From a bacterium (GTDB taxonomy: Bacteria; Verrucomicrobiota; Kiritimatiellia; CAIKKV01; CAITUY01), in assembly GCA_037143175.1 (NCBI GenBank), contig JBAWZF010000031.1, positions 1 to 33,226 on the forward strand: a stretch of DNA of 33,226 bases, read 5' to 3'. Positions 24,085-31,106 of this stretch are shown piece after piece. The notes beneath the pieces were generated by a model that was not told the origin of the DNA, did no database searches, and saw nothing but the letters and a program-made list of their open reading frames with translations. The position numbers were made by a program, and so were the translations under genes. Position 1 is the stretch's first letter. Every line of letters begins with the position of its first letter.

Positions 24085-24128
24085 GGCACCGCGGAGTCAA
24101 GGCACCGCGGAGTCGGCACCGCGGAGTC
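24085..24128. repeat. Three tandem copies of GGCACCGCGGAGTC
   Basis: Identical 14-bp units at 24085-24098, 24101-24114 and 24115-24128. The last unit runs into the left inverted repeat of the RAYT remnant. CCGCGGAGTC also occurs at 105-114 in the left-hand repeat cluster. Confidence 0.9.
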
Positions 24129-24600
24129 AGCCCTCAAACGGTAAATATAGTTGCGCTAAGGGGGTTGAGGAGGGTAGCGTTGAGACATGGTAAGGAAATT
24201 GAGGGTAGAATATGAGGGAGCGATCTATCACGTGGTGATCCGCGGGGTGGAGCGGCGGAAGGTGTTTAGCGATGATGCGGATCGGGAGCGGTTTCTGGAC
24301 CGGCTGTCGAAATATGCCGTAGAGATGGAGGGTGGGGGCCGTGAAGCGGTTGCCATTGCCGGAACAGATAGAGGCGTTGCGCGGGTATGTTGTGCAAGTA
24401 CGGCGGCCTAAGTCAGCGGAATGTTGCTGGTCTCATGGGTGTCGGCACAGGGGCGGCGGTCAGTTTCCAGTTGAAGCGGTTGGAGCAGGCGCTAAAGACG
24501 GATAAAATGCTCGCTGGTCGGGTGGATCATATCGAAGGTCTCCTCGGTGGACTACGGCAAAAAGCGAAACTAGCGAAAGGTTTATCGTTTGAGGGCTGAC
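24126..24600 (+). mobile_element. Decayed REP-associated element bounded by 20-bp inverted repeats
   Basis: GTCAGCCCTCAAACG at 24126-24140 is the exact reverse complement of 24586-24600. Extending inward to 24145 and 24581 gives 19 of 20 paired positions. Between them lies a broken RAYT gene. The right repeat contains the last codons and stop of that gene (SFEG-stop), so the left copy is an inverted duplicate of the gene's own 3' end. This architecture suggests a short non-autonomous or decayed element; mobility is inferred. Confidence 0.65.
24187..24599 (+). pseudogene. REP-associated tyrosine transposase (RAYT) remnant with internal deletion and frameshift
   Basis: The 5' part (from ATG 24187) reads MVRKLRVEYEGAIYHVVIRG and continues RRKVFSDDADRERFLDRLSKY, the classic N terminus of Y1-type REP-associated transposases. 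About 45 codons later similarity is lost. From 24387, in another frame, KYGGLSQRNVAGLMGVGTGA and VSFQLKRLEQ match the C-terminal helix-turn-helix tail of these proteins, ending at TGA 24597-24599. The HUH motif (HxH) and catalytic Tyr of the central domain are absent, so the protein cannot be active. RAYTs normally act on short palindromic REP sequences. Confidence 0.85.
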
Positions 24601-24601
24601 C

Positions 24602-24841
24602 CCGATCCCTTGGGATAGTGCGATCCATTTCATCGGCCGCGCCGGCTGGATCCGCCGTGTGAAGAATGGAAGCATTCAGGCGTGCCTTGCTGATGGGGAA
24701 TTGATCCAGGCGTTTGGCCTGCGCTTCGAAGGACGGGGCCCCTGGAGTTGCGACGGTGAAGGAGTTGGGCGGGTTCAACTCCATGGCGGTGCCCCCAGGG
24801 TGGTACAGATTTTAAAGGAGAAAATATCATGCACAAAATGA
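24602..24841 (+). pseudogene. C-terminal scrap of an unrecognised protein beside the RAYT remnant
   Basis: Immediately after the right inverted repeat, one frame is open from 24602 and reads DSAIHFIGRAGWIRRVKNGS, then LADGELIQAFGLRFEGRGPW and GGAPRVVQI. It looks like a beta-rich C-terminal end, perhaps of a polysaccharide lyase or heparinase-like enzyme, but the family is not secure. It has no start of its own and the upstream part is missing, in keeping with a deletion or insertion by the element. Its tail overlaps the ribosome-binding site of the next gene. Confidence 0.35.
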
Positions 24842-25851
24842 ACAGCAGACAAAGAATCAAAGCCATAATTGCTGGGGAGCCTGCGGATCGTTGTGGATTC
24901 TGGATGGGGAATCCTGATGCGGCGACCTGGCCGATCTATCATCACTATTTTGGCACCAGCACAGAGGAGGAACTACGGCAGAAACTCGGTGATGATTTGC
25001 GTTGGATTTGCCCTCAGTTTTTCCCTGATGTCTATCGTGATCCACAAGGACATGGCATGTTTGACGCAGGATTGAAAAAGGAGAGACATGGACAAGCTGG
25101 GCCATTCGCCAACTGCGAGGATGTTCGTGAGGTCGAGGATTACCCCTGGCCCAATCCGGATTATCTGAACTTCGATACCTGTCTGGCGGCGTTGGACAAT
25201 GCCGGTGAGGTATACCGGGCAAGCGGGTTCTGGACCTGTTTTTATCACAACATCATGGATCTGTTCGGCATGGAAGATTACATGGTGAAGATGTACACGA
25301 ACCCGGATGTGGTTCATGCCGTTACCGATCGGGTTTGCGGCTTTTATTACGAGGCCAATGAGCGGTTTTTCAAGCTCGCGGGAAACCGGCTGGATGGGTT
25401 TTTCTTCGGCAACGATTTTGGCACGCAATTGGATTTAATTTGCGGTCCCGAGCAGTTTGACGAGTTTATCATGCCCTGGTTTAAGCGGTTTACGGAGCAG
25501 GGACACCGGTGGGGGTATCAAGTTATCCTGCATTCCTGCGGTGCTATTCATCGTGTGATTGGCCGGCTTGTTGAGTCCGGTGTGGACTGCCTGCATCCGT
25601 TGCAGGCGTTGGCCCATAACATGGATGCCGAAACGCTGGCGCGTGACTTTAAGGGGCAGATCGCCTTTATGGGCGGTATCGACACCCAGCATTTGCTGGT
25701 GCATGGAACACCTGATGACATCAAAGCTGAGGTGCGGCGTGTCAAAAAGCTGTTGGGACCCGGGTTGATTGTCAGCCCCAGTCATGAGGCGTTATTGCCG
25801 AATGTTCCTCCCGCGAATGTACAGGCCATGGCCGAGGCGGCCATCGAATAG
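24829..25851 (+). CDS. Uroporphyrinogen decarboxylase-like (URO-D/MtaA superfamily) protein, HxCG type
   Basis: A 340-residue URO-D-fold TIM barrel. It is not HemE: the N-terminal arginine motif of heme-pathway enzymes is missing. HSCGAI (H235, C237) resembles the zinc-binding HxC motif of methyltransferases such as MtaA/CmuA, and GVDCLHPLQ and FMGGIDTQHLL are typical of the wider family. Such proteins either decarboxylate or transfer methyl groups to or from cobalamin or thiols; the reaction here is unknown. AAAGGAG stands 10 nt before ATG 24829. It is followed after 47 bp by the GH38 alpha-mannosidase on the same strand, so it probably acts in the same sugar pathway. Confidence 0.88.
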   Translation: MHKMNSRQRIKAIIAGEPADRCGFWMGNPDAATWPIYHHYFGTSTEEELRQKLGDDLRWICPQFFPDVYRDPQGHGMFDAGLKKERHGQAGPFANCEDVREVEDYPWPNPDYLNFDTCLAALDNAGEVYRASGFWTCFYHNIMDLFGMEDYMVKMYTNPDVVHAVTDRVCGFYYEANERFFKLAGNRLDGFFFGNDFGTQLDLICGPEQFDEFIMPWFKRFTEQGHRWGYQVILHSCGAIHRVIGRLVESGVDCLHPLQALAHNMDAETLARDFKGQIAFMGGIDTQHLLVHGTPDDIKAEVRRVKKLLGPGLIVSPSHEALLPNVPPANVQAMAEAAIE

Positions 25852-25898
25852 ACCGTTCTTAATACGAATTGAAGAAGGAACATGACCCGGAGACAATC

Positions 25899-28682
25899 AT
25901 GAAAAAAACGATAACTTACGATGCTCATTATATTTCAGGAACCCATTGGGATCGGGAGTGGTACCGCCCTTTTCAGGAATACCGGTTTCTCTTGGTCCGT
26001 TTGATGGATGAATTGCTCGACCTGATGGAGCGTGACCCTGATTTTCGGTATTTTCATCTCGACGGGCAAACTTGTGTGTTGGACGACTATCTTGAAATCC
26101 GACCGGAGAACCGGGGGAGGTTGGCCTCGCTGATTCGCGAAGGGCGGATCCTGATCGGGCCGTGGTTCACCATGCCCGACCTGTTCTGCGTCGGAGATGA
26201 GGCCCTTATCCGCAACCTGTTACTTGGACGCCGGATTGCGGGCGAGTGGGGCGTGGAGCCCATGCCGGTGGGGTTTGTGTGCGACATGTTCGGGCATCCT
26301 TCACAATTGCCCCAGATTTTTGCAGGATTTGGCATGCGCGACGTGCTTCTTGGCCGCGGCACCAACGAATCCACTACCCCCATGTTTTTCACGTGGGAGG
26401 CACCGGATGGTTCCCGTTGTTTCACCTTCAAATTGCAGGATTTGCAGGGATATGGCGCGCTGGCAGTGCCGCGCACGGTGATGGAGGTTGACACCTTTCT
26501 GACCAGCGGAATGAAAGAATTCGGAGCGGATCTGATGGCGGCCGGTGATGACGCGGATGCGGTCACAGCCGTTCGTGAAAAGCATTGCCGCAAGGAAATG
26601 GCCGCCTATGTGCGCCACGAGATGAGCCGTGCCAACGGAAAAACCCTATGCCTGATGGATGCGATGGACCACATTGCTCCCGCTTCAGAGGTTAAGCGAT
26701 ATCTCCGGCTCATCCGTGCGGCTTGTCCGGAAGTGCGGCCGCATCACTCCACGCTTCCGGAGTTTTTCAAGGAGGCACGTCGCACGGCCCGGTCGCTGCC
26801 CTTACGCCGGGGAGAACTGCGCGAACCCAGTCAGAACAAAGCGCCCTATCTGTGGCTGATCCCCAACTGTGTCTCGGCGCGGGTACGGATGAAGCAGGCT
26901 AATGATACCTGTCAGAATCTGCTCGAGAAATGGGTTGAACCCCTGGTTGCTATAGCCAATCTGAACGGGGCAAACATGCCTGAACAGCACCTCCGGGTGG
27001 CCTGGCGCAATGTGTTGCTCAATCATGCGCATGATTCTATCTGTGGCTGCTCCATCGATCAAGTTCATCGCGATATGATGTACCGCTACGATCAGGCGCG
27101 AGTGCTGGGAGAGCAGTTGCGGGTACAGGCGTTAGGCGCATTGACGGCAGGGTGCGGCGATCTTGCTCGGGCTAAAGACGAGTTTACGCTCACGCTTGTG
27201 AATGCCCTGCCGACTACAAGGGATGAAGCTGTGACGTTTGATGTGGATCTACCGACCGACTGGCCGACGGATTCTGCCGACGGATTCAATACTCAACGGC
27301 TTAAAACATTCGTATTGGAGGATGCCGCAGGCAACACCGTTCCGTATCAGAGGTTGGCCTTTATTCCCAAAACCAGCGAACGCTCGCGGTTTGCCAGATT
27401 CTGTTTCATTAGTGACGGCGATTTCACACGCTACACGGTTGCCGCACGGGTTGAACTTCCCGCCTGCGGCTTTGTTTCGCTTCGTGTCAAGCCGTCCCCG
27501 ATGCCGGTACGGAGCGTGGGGACCCTGCGCACCGGACCGACTTCGGCAGAAAACGAGTATCTGGCGGTTGCGATCGCATCCAACGGGACACTCACGCTCA
27601 CGGACAAGGTTACCGGTCAGTCGTATACGGATCTGTTAATCTTCGAGGATCGAAGTGAGGTTGGTGACGGCTGGTTTCACGGGCATTCGCTTAACGATGA
27701 ACAACGGCTATCAACGGCCAGTGCGGCGCAGGTAGCCGTGGTTTATGACGGGCCTGAGATCGTGTCGTTCCGCGTAACGGTGACCCTGATGGTCCCGGCC
27801 TGCTACGACCACGCCTTGGAGCGGCCTGTAATTGAACAGGTTCCGCTGATCGTCTCCAGCCAGATTTCATTACGGCGTGGTGCCCGTGTTGTGGATGTGG
27901 AGACGCATATCGATAACACGGTCGAGGATCACCGGCTGAAGGTGCTGTTACCTACGGATTGTGCGGGGGCTAAGACGTACTTGGCGCACCATCCTTTCGA
28001 TTTCGTTGAGCGGGAAATCCGGGTAGATGCCGCGACGTCCACTTGGCAGGAGATGGAGCAGGCGGAGAAGCCATTCCTGGGGATGCAGTCCGTGGCGGCG
28101 GGAAGGCGTGGGCTGGCCTTTCTCTCGGCGGGTGGACTGCACGAGGGCGGTGTGGCTGATGACCGACGTCGGACGATGCAGATCACGTTGCTGCGTTCCT
28201 TCCGCAAGACTGTAGGGACGAGCGGAGAATCGGATGGGTTGGAACGTGGGCTAATTATCCATCGTTTTGCACTCATGCCGTTTGGTGGCGTATTGCCACG
28301 CGCCGAGGCCATGCGTGAACTCGCTAAAATTCAGGCAGGCATCATTAGTCGTCAGACCGGATCCCGGCCATCCGGATACCCGGCGATGACGGGTAAGGAA
28401 CCAGCGACGCAGAGTTTTATCGAGGTGAAAGCGGGAAGGTTGGTGCTGTCTTCGATAAAGCCGGCCGAGCAGGGGGGGGGGCTGGTTATCCGGCTATGGA
28501 ATCCGACGGGGCAAAGGTGGGCCGACACGATCCGTTTATGGCGAAAGGTGAAGGACTCGAAGTATATCGATCTGAATGAGAAGCCGATAAAGAATTCGGG
28601 GGTACCTCGTGTGGTCGGGAATGAGATTACCGTGAGTGCAGGAGCGCATCAAATCGTAACCATAAACGTAACCATGAACTGA
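25899..28682 (+). CDS. Glycoside hydrolase family 38 alpha-mannosidase
   Basis: A 927-residue GH38 enzyme that cleaves alpha-mannosides with retention, using a bound Zn ion. The metal-binding HWD (H16, D18 in GTHWDREWY), the nucleophile region CDMFGHPSQ with D129, and the third histidine site NHAHDS (H376-H378) are all present. The central three-helix domain (about 270-440) and the C-terminal beta domains (about 450-927) are complete. There is no signal peptide, so it works in the cytoplasm on imported oligosaccharides or glycosides. The open frame extends upstream to TTG 25869, but ATG 25899 has GGAG 6 nt before it and starts naturally (MKKTITYDAHYISG). No transporter is nearby. Confidence 0.95.
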   Translation: MKKTITYDAHYISGTHWDREWYRPFQEYRFLLVRLMDELLDLMERDPDFRYFHLDGQTCVLDDYLEIRPENRGRLASLIREGRILIGPWFTMPDLFCVGDEALIRNLLLGRRIAGEWGVEPMPVGFVCDMFGHPSQLPQIFAGFGMRDVLLGRGTNESTTPMFFTWEAPDGSRCFTFKLQDLQGYGALAVPRTVMEVDTFLTSGMKEFGADLMAAGDDADAVTAVREKHCRKEMAAYVRHEMSRANGKTLCLMDAMDHIAPASEVKRYLRLIRAACPEVRPHHSTLPEFFKEARRTARSLPLRRGELREPSQNKAPYLWLIPNCVSARVRMKQANDTCQNLLEKWVEPLVAIANLNGANMPEQHLRVAWRNVLLNHAHDSICGCSIDQVHRDMMYRYDQARVLGEQLRVQALGALTAGCGDLARAKDEFTLTLVNALPTTRDEAVTFDVDLPTDWPTDSADGFNTQRLKTFVLEDAAGNTVPYQRLAFIPKTSERSRFARFCFISDGDFTRYTVAARVELPACGFVSLRVKPSPMPVRSVGTLRTGPTSAENEYLAVAIASNGTLTLTDKVTGQSYTDLLIFEDRSEVGDGWFHGHSLNDEQRLSTASAAQVAVVYDGPEIVSFRVTVTLMVPACYDHALERPVIEQVPLIVSSQISLRRGARVVDVETHIDNTVEDHRLKVLLPTDCAGAKTYLAHHPFDFVEREIRVDAATSTWQEMEQAEKPFLGMQSVAAGRRGLAFLSAGGLHEGGVADDRRRTMQITLLRSFRKTVGTSGESDGLERGLIIHRFALMPFGGVLPRAEAMRELAKIQAGIISRQTGSRPSGYPAMTGKEPATQSFIEVKAGRLVLSSIKPAEQGGGLVIRLWNPTGQRWADTIRLWRKVKDSKYIDLNEKPIKNSGVPRVVGNEITVSAGAHQIVTINVTMN

Positions 28683-28848: not shown

Positions 28849-29802
28849 TCATGACCGGGTTGAGAGGGGAATACCGGCACTTCGCTCCTTGGAGCCGTGT
28901 GAACGATAGGCGTGGGGAGTGCAGTGGCAATGGCGGCGGAATGCCTTGGAGAAGGTGAAGGCGTCGGAATATCCCGTCTGGAAGGCGATTTCCTTCACCA
29001 GGAGGTCGCTCTGGCGCAGCAGATTGCGCGCGGCGTCGAGACGAAGCTCGTCGCGGTAGCGGCCGGGAGAAACGCCGTAACGGTGCTTGAACAGTCGTCC
29101 GAGATGTGCGGGAGTCACTCCCGCCCGGGCGGCTACTGCCGCCAGTCCGCCCGCTCGGGTGTAATGGGCATCAAGATAATCGTGGGCGCTGACTTCAGGG
29201 GATCGCATCGCCGGGGTGCCGGGCAATTGTTGTCCGCCCAGAACACCTGCAATAAACGCGAACAACTGCAGGACGCCCAGGTGGAGATTCAAGACAGGTA
29301 TGGGGCCGGATGACGACAGGGTGTCGCGAAGACTGGCCAGAAGGGGCGGAAGCGTGAGCATGGCGGATTCGGGCATCTGGATCACCGAAGGGGCGTTCCG
29401 CAGGGGAATTCCTGTGTAATGGTTCAGGAGTGAGAGCCACGATGGCGGCGATTCCATACCTTCGTAGGCGAAGGTGATGGCATGATAACGGGTAATCCCT
29501 TTACTGCGGGGGAGAAAGCAGTGCGCCTCACCGGGAGCCGTGAGGAGGCAGAGCCCGCGACGGGTCGGAATCTTGCGCCCCTCCAGGATCATCTCGTTGT
29601 CCGCCTGACAAAACAGCACGAGATGAAATACCTCATGGCGATGTTCGCGCTGCCTTGTAGATCCCTCGTGTTTCTCGAACAGGGTGAGATTGGTGAGGTA
29701 GAAGCGTCCGCACCCGGGAAAACTCATGCACGCTGGCGCCGCTTGACTTTGCGACGTCGCCGTGAACCGTGCCTCAGTCGCAGAAATATCATTAATTGAC
29801 AT
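28849..29802 (-). CDS. AraC/XylS-family transcriptional regulator (cupin sensor)
   Basis: A 317-residue regulator. The N-terminal part (about 30-115) is a cupin-type ligand pocket (HRHEVFHLVLF with H54, H56). The C-terminal pair of helix-turn-helix units (about 205-302) shows GGLAAVAARAGVTPAHLGRLFK and IAFQTGYSDAFTFSKAFRR, the AraC signature. It faces a URO-D-like gene across 95 bp containing repeated TGACAT sites, so it likely activates that gene in response to a sugar or derived metabolite. The GH38 operon upstream may also be in its regulon. The ligand is unknown. Confidence 0.93.
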   Translation of the reverse strand: MSINDISATEARFTATSQSQAAPACMSFPGCGRFYLTNLTLFEKHEGSTRQREHRHEVFHLVLFCQADNEMILEGRKIPTRRGLCLLTAPGEAHCFLPRSKGITRYHAITFAYEGMESPPSWLSLLNHYTGIPLRNAPSVIQMPESAMLTLPPLLASLRDTLSSSGPIPVLNLHLGVLQLFAFIAGVLGGQQLPGTPAMRSPEVSAHDYLDAHYTRAGGLAAVAARAGVTPAHLGRLFKHRYGVSPGRYRDELRLDAARNLLRQSDLLVKEIAFQTGYSDAFTFSKAFRRHCHCTPHAYRSHGSKERSAGIPLSTRS

Positions 29803-29855: not shown

Positions 29856-29897
29856 AGTAGTATACGTCTTAATAAGTTGAAGCAGGAGGATTCAGTC

Positions 29898-31106
29898 ATG
29901 GGTGCATACGAACAGGCAACGGCGGAACAGCGGCAGCAGGTCGATCAATTGTTGGCCGATACAAAGGCCAATGGCGGTTTGGCCCCGGTTGATATCGAGC
30001 GTTTCTGGGCCGATCAGGAAGTTGCGAATAAGGATCCCTTTGGCGCCGATATCCCACAGATTCCCCTCGGAGCGATCTGCAACTGGGAATGTGTGTTTGA
30101 TGAACTGGGGGTGGCGCAGGATTGGTGGCGCTTCCAGTACACGGACGAAGCATGGGCGCTCGACTTGAGCCGGCGCTACAACGATCTGTCTGAAAAAATC
30201 GTGGGACGTCGCCTGCTTACCGAAAAGTCTGTCGACCGGACTTTACAATGCCCGGAAGTCAAGGGCTTGAATGATATCTTCGAATCCAAAAATGTTTGGG
30301 AAGGAGGCGCGACCGGGTCATGGTGGCTAAAGCAGTCAGCCAGCACCCCGGGTGAACTGGTAAGGCTCCTGGATCGTGTGGAGCAGCGACTGGAGCATTT
30401 ACATGATTTTCTGCTGCCCGATAACTGGTCTGATGAGAAACGTCGTCTGGACGCCCTGGGTGTGAAGCTGCCGCTCTATCGATGGCAGCGTGGTCCCTGC
30501 ACGTTTGCCTGTTCCGTGTATGGCATTGAAAATATGTTGTTTCTCTTCTTTGATGATCCCGCCCTGATGCGCCGATTTGGTGACCTGATCCAGCGGGCCA
30601 TTCTGGAGCGGGCGCGGGTGATTGACGAGGAGGCGGGATTCACGCCGGATACTGCGCCGAAAGGGTGGGGGTGGGCGGATGATAATTGCTGCCTCTTTAA
30701 TGCAGAGATATACGAGTGGTTTGCCATGCCGATCCACAGAGCCGTTTTTGCCCGGTATGCGCCGAAACCCGAGGACTGGCGTTATCAGCATAGCGATTCA
30801 AACATGGGCCACCTGCTGCCCTTGCTCTCGGAATTGGACCTCAAGGGAACCAATTTCGGCCCGACCCTGACAGTTGCAGAGATTCGTCAATACTGTCCGA
30901 ACGCTGTGATTGACGGGCAACTGGCGCCGTTTACCTTCAGCCGGAACGAGGAGGCCAATATGGTGGCCGAGTTCCTTCGCGATTTCGAGCAGGCTAAAGT
31001 AAAACGCGGATTGCGATTCGCCGCAGCAGGCTCCATCAACAACGGTAGCCGGTTGACCGGCATGCGCCTGCTGATGGCCGCCATCCAGCGCTATGGCCGC
31101 TATTAA
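29898..31106 (+). CDS. Second uroporphyrinogen decarboxylase-superfamily-like protein
   Basis: A 402-residue cytoplasmic protein with a URO-D-like TIM-barrel pattern: an Trp-rich N-terminal region (about residues 35-90), a middle with VYGIENMLFLFFDDPALMRRF (metabolic-barrel helix), WGWADDNCCLF, then QHSDSNMGHLLPLL and LKGTNFGPTLTVAEIRQYCP. The HxCG of the first URO-D-like protein is replaced by HSDSNMG, so a bound zinc-thiol chemistry is less likely. Substrate and reaction are not known. The frame reaches TTG 29877, but ATG 29898 has AGGAGGA 7 nt upstream and is chosen. It is transcribed away from the adjacent AraC gene, which suggests direct control. Confidence 0.72.
   Translation: MGAYEQATAEQRQQVDQLLADTKANGGLAPVDIERFWADQEVANKDPFGADIPQIPLGAICNWECVFDELGVAQDWWRFQYTDEAWALDLSRRYNDLSEKIVGRRLLTEKSVDRTLQCPEVKGLNDIFESKNVWEGGATGSWWLKQSASTPGELVRLLDRVEQRLEHLHDFLLPDNWSDEKRRLDALGVKLPLYRWQRGPCTFACSVYGIENMLFLFFDDPALMRRFGDLIQRAILERARVIDEEAGFTPDTAPKGWGWADDNCCLFNAEIYEWFAMPIHRAVFARYAPKPEDWRYQHSDSNMGHLLPLLSELDLKGTNFGPTLTVAEIRQYCPNAVIDGQLAPFTFSRNEEANMVAEFLRDFEQAKVKRGLRFAAAGSINNGSRLTGMRLLMAAIQRYGRY

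Follow-up and report, generated by a model that had tools for sequence, protein, structure and literature searches.

UroD1, a UROD-superfamily protein encoded beside a GH38 alpha-mannosidase in Kiritimatiellia: a predicted methyltransferase for mannoside O-demethylation

What does a protein of the UROD superfamily, here named UroD1, do when encoded directly upstream of an alpha-mannosidase of glycoside hydrolase family 38 (GH38)? The question is raised by a stretch of 33,226 nucleotides (the window; JBAWZF010000031.1, contig C31) from a metagenome-assembled genome (MAG) of a Kiritimatiellia bacterium (G000; 3.3 Mb in 107 contigs, 95% complete). A preliminary description of this DNA proposed that the pair couples methyl transfer to the breakdown of mannosides. 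This proposal survives in part: recurrent linkage of the two genes, operons that combine GH38, UROD and corrinoid-protein genes, and the presence of a corrinoid protein and a RACo activator in the genome itself speak strongly for it, whilst the pair is split in near relatives and a Gfo/Idh relic said to lie nearby was not found. On balance, it is somewhat probable that UroD1 is the methyltransferase I (MT1) of a corrinoid-dependent O-demethylase for O-methylated mannose or mannosides. Genes for alpha-mannosidase, mannose isomerase and sugar transport repeatedly accompany a UROD protein that looks O-type, in genomes with corrinoid proteins and RACo, and such demethylation best explains this pattern.

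UroD1, its candidate metal site and the partner enzyme

UroD1 (340 amino acids) is encoded by an intact open reading frame (ORF) and falls within the UROD superfamily (PF01208, 78.7 bits against a curated cut-off of 23.9; E 5e-22), with the H235-x-C237-G motif originally read from it. Its AlphaFold2 (AF2) model, built from a 16-sequence alignment, has a predicted local distance difference test score (pLDDT) of 92.9, and Foldseek placed the M. mazei methyltransferase MtaA (4ay8, 4ay7) at the top with HemE next. As the comparisons with HemE and MtaA are tied (Z about 26 in VIA-align 2), function is left undecided by the fold alone. HemE itself was rejected as the identity of UroD1: its model is absent from the NCBIfam matches and the MRQAGR segment has no counterpart in the HMMER alignment with 4wsh, in agreement with the initial view that this is not a heme enzyme. 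The tie, together with the support that the HemE fold also gives to decarboxylation and the lack of a nearby corrinoid gene at most of the 80 best UroD1 loci, lends some weight to an alternative in which UroD1 is no methyltransferase and acts, as a UROD-fold lyase or decarboxylase-like enzyme without a corrinoid, on a mannose-derived sugar. This is nevertheless quite improbable: HxC is invariant and is joined by a carboxylate where MtaA has its zinc ligands, RACo almost always accompanies UroD1-like genes within the class, and corrinoid proteins are encoded within UROD/GH38 operons.

Plain phmmer searches of PDB sequences with UroD1 and with UroD2, a second UROD-fold protein of the window, returned no relatives, and a profile was needed for UroD1. 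This profile matched 4ay7 at E 5e-4, H235 and C237 aligning with its HxC motif and E320 with the Cys of its PGCG segment, the residues that bind zinc in MtaA. All 85 orthologues have H235, C237, G238, H256 and Q259, and H319 and E320 occur in 82 of the 85, two of the remaining three being gapped there. From this alignment, H235, C237 and E320, with H319 adjacent, are candidate metal ligands. Within the UROD superfamily a His-Cys-Cys site goes with S-methyl transfer, and a carboxylate in place of a Cys with O-methyl transfer (PMC10418091). By its H235/C237/E320 motif UroD1 fits the ligand rule for O-demethylase MT1 enzymes (Cys replaced, typically by Glu or Asp; PMC10418091) and, because a carboxylate occupies the place of the third zinc Cys of MtaA, it looks like an O-type enzyme.

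The MtaA/MtbA methylcobamide:coenzyme M methyltransferases resemble UroD1 most closely in fold and among sub-threshold sequence families, and share its HxC zinc motif. Unlike MtaA, which has a His-Cys-Cys site for S-methylation, UroD1 retains only H235 and C237 of the set found in TIGR01463 (MtaA/CmuA), the third Cys being Glu320; it scores 58 bits with that model against a cut-off of 235.4, and all of its top NCBIfam matches, which are MtaA/CmuA-type, lie far below cut-off. The chloromethane methyltransferase CdmB is likewise a UROD-superfamily MT1 of a corrinoid system, but is reported to act on haloalkanes independently of zinc (PMC13222342), whereas UroD1 keeps the metal-site motif.

The partner enzyme belongs to family 38, all four GH38 Pfam domains (GH38N, mid, C and C2) being matched and the conserved catalytic segments HWDREWY, D-x-FG and MD-x-MDH being found by phmmer. 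Its intact ORF encodes 937 amino acids from a TTG at 25869, or 927 from an ATG at 25899; with the ATG the 47 bp gap originally given is right, and a spacer of this length is consistent with a single transcript. It has no obvious secretion signal. Domains and catalytic segments are shared with bacterial GH38 enzymes, of which 3lvt, 5kbp and 2wyh are the nearest solved structures, and with the mannosylglycerate hydrolase MngB; from these the window enzyme is distant in sequence, with 380 bits for the MngB model NF007331 against an equivalog cut-off of 1138.

Recurrent linkage and the corrinoid system

An orthologue profile was scanned against 84,980 species genomes and the best 80 UroD1 loci, which span many phyla, were taken (more exist), final neighbour counts being made by six-frame searches with hidden Markov models. 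GH38 lies within about 8 kb at 18 of the 80, on the UroD1 strand in 18 of 18, where about 1.4 such loci would be expected from the 48 GH38 matches in 34.4 Mb of eight GH38-bearing genomes; representatives of strong and divergent GH38 groups were confirmed by Pfam. A D-lyxose/D-mannose isomerase (9 loci) and a Na+:solute symporter (16 loci) also recur. GH38 adjoins UroD1 directly in L195, L199 and L204, a mannitol dehydrogenase gene lies between the two in L182 and L184, and several Aminicenantes loci run symporter-GH38-UROD-UroD1 and then lyxose isomerase. Linkage occurs in MAGs labelled Aminicenantes, Chlamydiota, Verrucomicrobia, Armatimonadetes, Anaerolineae and Bacteroidetes, and the GH38-presence label requires 16 changes on the UroD1 tree, so that it does not represent one inherited block, although the Aminicenantes cases are related. 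UROD paralogues in general have GH38 nearby in 10 of 258 cases, against 18 of 80 for UroD1 (Fisher 2e-6), a rough comparison because the former come from eight genomes of one class. Adjacency of GH38 and UROD genes within 500 nt is only mildly enriched in those eight genomes (4 against 0.57 expected, the window counted), and GH38 abuts a UROD gene in G007 and G012.

The preliminary description had found no corrinoid protein in the window, and none is encoded around UroD1; one is nevertheless encoded elsewhere in the genome, which also has RACo. This single MtaC-type protein has both B12-binding domains and is encoded beside a PocR-type AraC regulator and an acetate kinase; with the one RACo activator, the genome has both of the parts expected alongside an O-demethylase MT1. 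A candidate methyltransferase II (MT2) is close to methyltetrahydrofolate:corrinoid methyltransferase, below the cut-off of that family. A UROD-MFS-MTHFR run (L091; G000:C33:7274-11219), in which the MTHFR has a C-terminal domain and a PocR-AraC regulator lies upstream, resembles a further operon for a methyl donor. Use of the corrinoid protein by a glycine-betaine-type MttB was rejected, no MttB family being present in G000; MtaB was not tested. Of 58 genomes of the class, 39 have UroD1-like genes together with RACo and 18 have neither, whilst RACo occurs alone in 1 and UroD1-like genes alone in 0 (p 4e-14, not corrected for relatedness).

GH38, UROD and corrinoid genes also meet in single operons. 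In the sister species (G004), the window GH38 orthologue (82-83% identity) lies in the order MFS-UROD-GH38-D-lyxose/D-mannose isomerase family-PfkB kinase-mannitol dehydrogenase family-CBM9-like-corrinoid protein (G004:C10; L134:5189-15159), apparently a complete mannoside operon, with its UROD gene (206.9 bits) 8 nt upstream of GH38. The corrinoid protein, 89% identical to the window genome copy, is the product of a second corrinoid-protein gene, which likely reached the sugar operon by duplication or transfer. In another family, G042 has the order UROD-corrinoid protein-Gfo/Idh-like-UROD-GH38, the Gfo/Idh label being a reading of the sequence. Compact UROD/corrinoid/RACo clusters were also seen in other families (L155, G046:C22; L160, G021:C49), and two of the UROD proteins in these clusters have PGCD where the third metal ligand is expected and no histidine in the HxC position.

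A possible pathway and its competitors

From these parts we infer a pathway, including its catalysis, the order of its steps and methylated mannose as its substrate. A methylated manno-oligosaccharide would be imported (step 1), after which the His-Cys-Glu metal site of UroD1 would bind the methyl-ether oxygen and the enzyme would methylate the Co(I) centre of the small corrinoid protein, whose gene lies in another part of the genome (step 2). A pterin-binding MT2 could then carry the methyl group to tetrahydrofolate, for oxidation by MTHFR (step 3), RACo would re-reduce the corrinoid (step 4) and GH38 would free mannose, which in relatives with the isomerase and kinase may pass into fructose metabolism (step 5).

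Several observations weigh against this pathway. None of the nine nearest UroD1 orthologues (63-82% identity) has a GH38 neighbour, their surroundings varying between MFS, transposase, Gfo/Idh, lactate racemase and formate/nitrite channel genes, and in G004 the orthologues of UroD1, GH38 and UroD2 lie on three separate contigs. The G004 operon UROD, unlike UroD1, has a His-Cys-Cys (S-type) site, so that it may be a methyl-accepting partner or use another donor. A corrinoid gene is near UroD1 in only 2 of the best 80 loci (L193 and L224); in characterised systems the corrinoid protein is usually encoded beside MT1, although this is not strictly required. The UroD1-linked GH38s are spread over several divergent subfamilies, whose substrates may not be the same, and the locus counts are not independent, as they come from MAG contigs, several of the same Aminicenantes lineage. 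Mannose is what the GH38, isomerase and symporter genes together indicate, and methylation of this mannose is a further assumption.

The split among near relatives also suits an explanation in which the window pair is a chance juxtaposition after rearrangement, each gene working elsewhere in metabolism, as do the decayed transposase-like stretch upstream of the pair and the DDE transposase ahead of UroD1 in G004. Chance is very improbable, however, when the linkage recurs across the MAG lineages listed above and the window GH38 orthologue in G004 again has a UROD gene just upstream. Separation of the pair in close relatives, named beforehand as the finding that should count against a functional link, did occur, but is outweighed by the wider pattern with its same-strand GH38 genes.

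A stronger competitor retains the corrinoid chemistry and changes the donor: UroD1 would act on a methoxylated aromatic, a methylated thiol, a haloalkane or another C1 compound, and GH38 would accompany it through shared carbohydrate islands. UROD-type MT1 enzymes are known for methoxyaromatics (MtvB, OdmB, VdmB and MtoB) and haloalkanes (CdmB) (PMC13222342; PMC8359953), and 62 of the best 80 UroD1 loci have diverse neighbours and no GH38. We consider this unlikely, although a serious contender, given the uniform strand of the linked GH38 genes, a linkage about six times as frequent as for UROD paralogues in general and the mannose-isomerase and sugar-transport neighbours of UroD1.

The O-demethylation of mannosides proposed here would resemble the acetogen and archaeal systems of MtvB, OdmB, VdmB and MtoB in having a UROD MT1, a corrinoid protein, a pterin-linked MT2 and an ATP-dependent activator, for all of which candidates exist, and in a metal site predicted to be O-type. 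Known corrinoid O-demethylases use aromatics (PMC8359953, PMC13222342), whereas here alpha-mannosidase, mannose isomerase and sugar transport are linked, the components are dispersed, UROD paralogues are many and a single MtaC-type corrinoid protein was found. The literature searched, a body without most subscription journals, holds no precedent for a corrinoid sugar demethylase. Its sole sugar demethylase is the oxygen-requiring P450 of porphyran degraders, which similarly removes a methyl group from a glycan sugar (6-O-methyl-D-galactose) within a glycan-degradation locus, but is unrelated to UroD1 and releases formaldehyde (PMC10033563). The same pairing in unrelated bacteria suggests that methylated mannose is demethylated without oxygen, by a route for which that literature has no earlier description. 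If so, sugars would join the methyl donors of corrinoid metabolism, and the consumption of algal methylated glycans in anoxic water and sediment would be explained; an algal source is a guess from the lake or sediment origin of several relatives' records. With slightly less than even confidence, we extend this to a widespread anaerobic glycan demethylation, in which expanded UROD methyltransferases are paired with particular glycosidases, share a corrinoid protein and feed methyl groups into C1 metabolism, UroD1 being the mannose-linked member. Methylated glycans would then be both a sugar and a methyl source for anaerobic bacteria, and part of the very large uncharacterised set of UROD-family proteins would gain a function.

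The window and other UROD proteins

Table 1. Features around the UroD1-GH38 pair (window coordinates)
Feature	Position	Strand	Basis
Ribosome-binding-site-like stretch (aaaggag) ahead of UroD1 ATG	24812..24828	+	Sequence
UroD1, UROD-superfamily protein, predicted corrinoid-dependent O-demethylase (MT1)	24829..25851	+	Pfam, AF2, Foldseek, profile, conservation
UroD1-GH38 spacer, 47 nt up to GH38 ATG	25852..25898	+	Sequence
GH38 alpha-mannosidase	25899..28682	+	Pfam GH38N/mid/C/C2; phmmer
AraC-family regulator	28849..29802	-	Pfam; orthologue in G004 also divergent from UroD2
UroD2, divergent UROD-fold protein	29877..31106	+	No Pfam match; predicted fold, HSDS motif

Downstream of the pair (Table 1), UroD2 had been overlooked in the preliminary description. 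It is recognised by no Pfam model, but its AF2 model (pLDDT 82.5) has UroD and MtaA as best fold matches, and HSDS, at the place of HSCG in UroD1, is invariant in 8 homologues; orthologues at 57-77% identity are scattered through genomes of the class. UroD2 may be a second methyltransferase, with an uncertain connection to the pair, and possibly represents an uncatalogued UROD clade. The window genome has 18 UROD-family genes and one relative has 68. In two of the paralogous loci of G000 (L092, C19; L100, C73), the neighbours of UROD genes encode a GH141-like beta-helix protein, a SASA esterase and an alpha-L-rhamnosidase, a hint that UROD proteins have partners for other sugars.

Beyond UroD2 lie a further AraC-family gene and one for a DHDPS-family aldolase or lyase (Pfam); both AraC regulators previously placed near the pair are real by Pfam. 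The region ahead of the pair (23.2-24.8 kb) is decayed and, in place of the supposed Gfo/Idh relic, contains sequence that matches, below threshold, the C-terminus of an aldo/keto reductase and a Y1/IS200-like transposase. The decayed start of an IS200/REP-transposase-like gene lies just upstream of UroD1 at 24187-24330 on the forward strand (Y1_Tnp E 0.054), and short direct repeats, GGCACCGCGGAGTC, occur at about 24088-24130.

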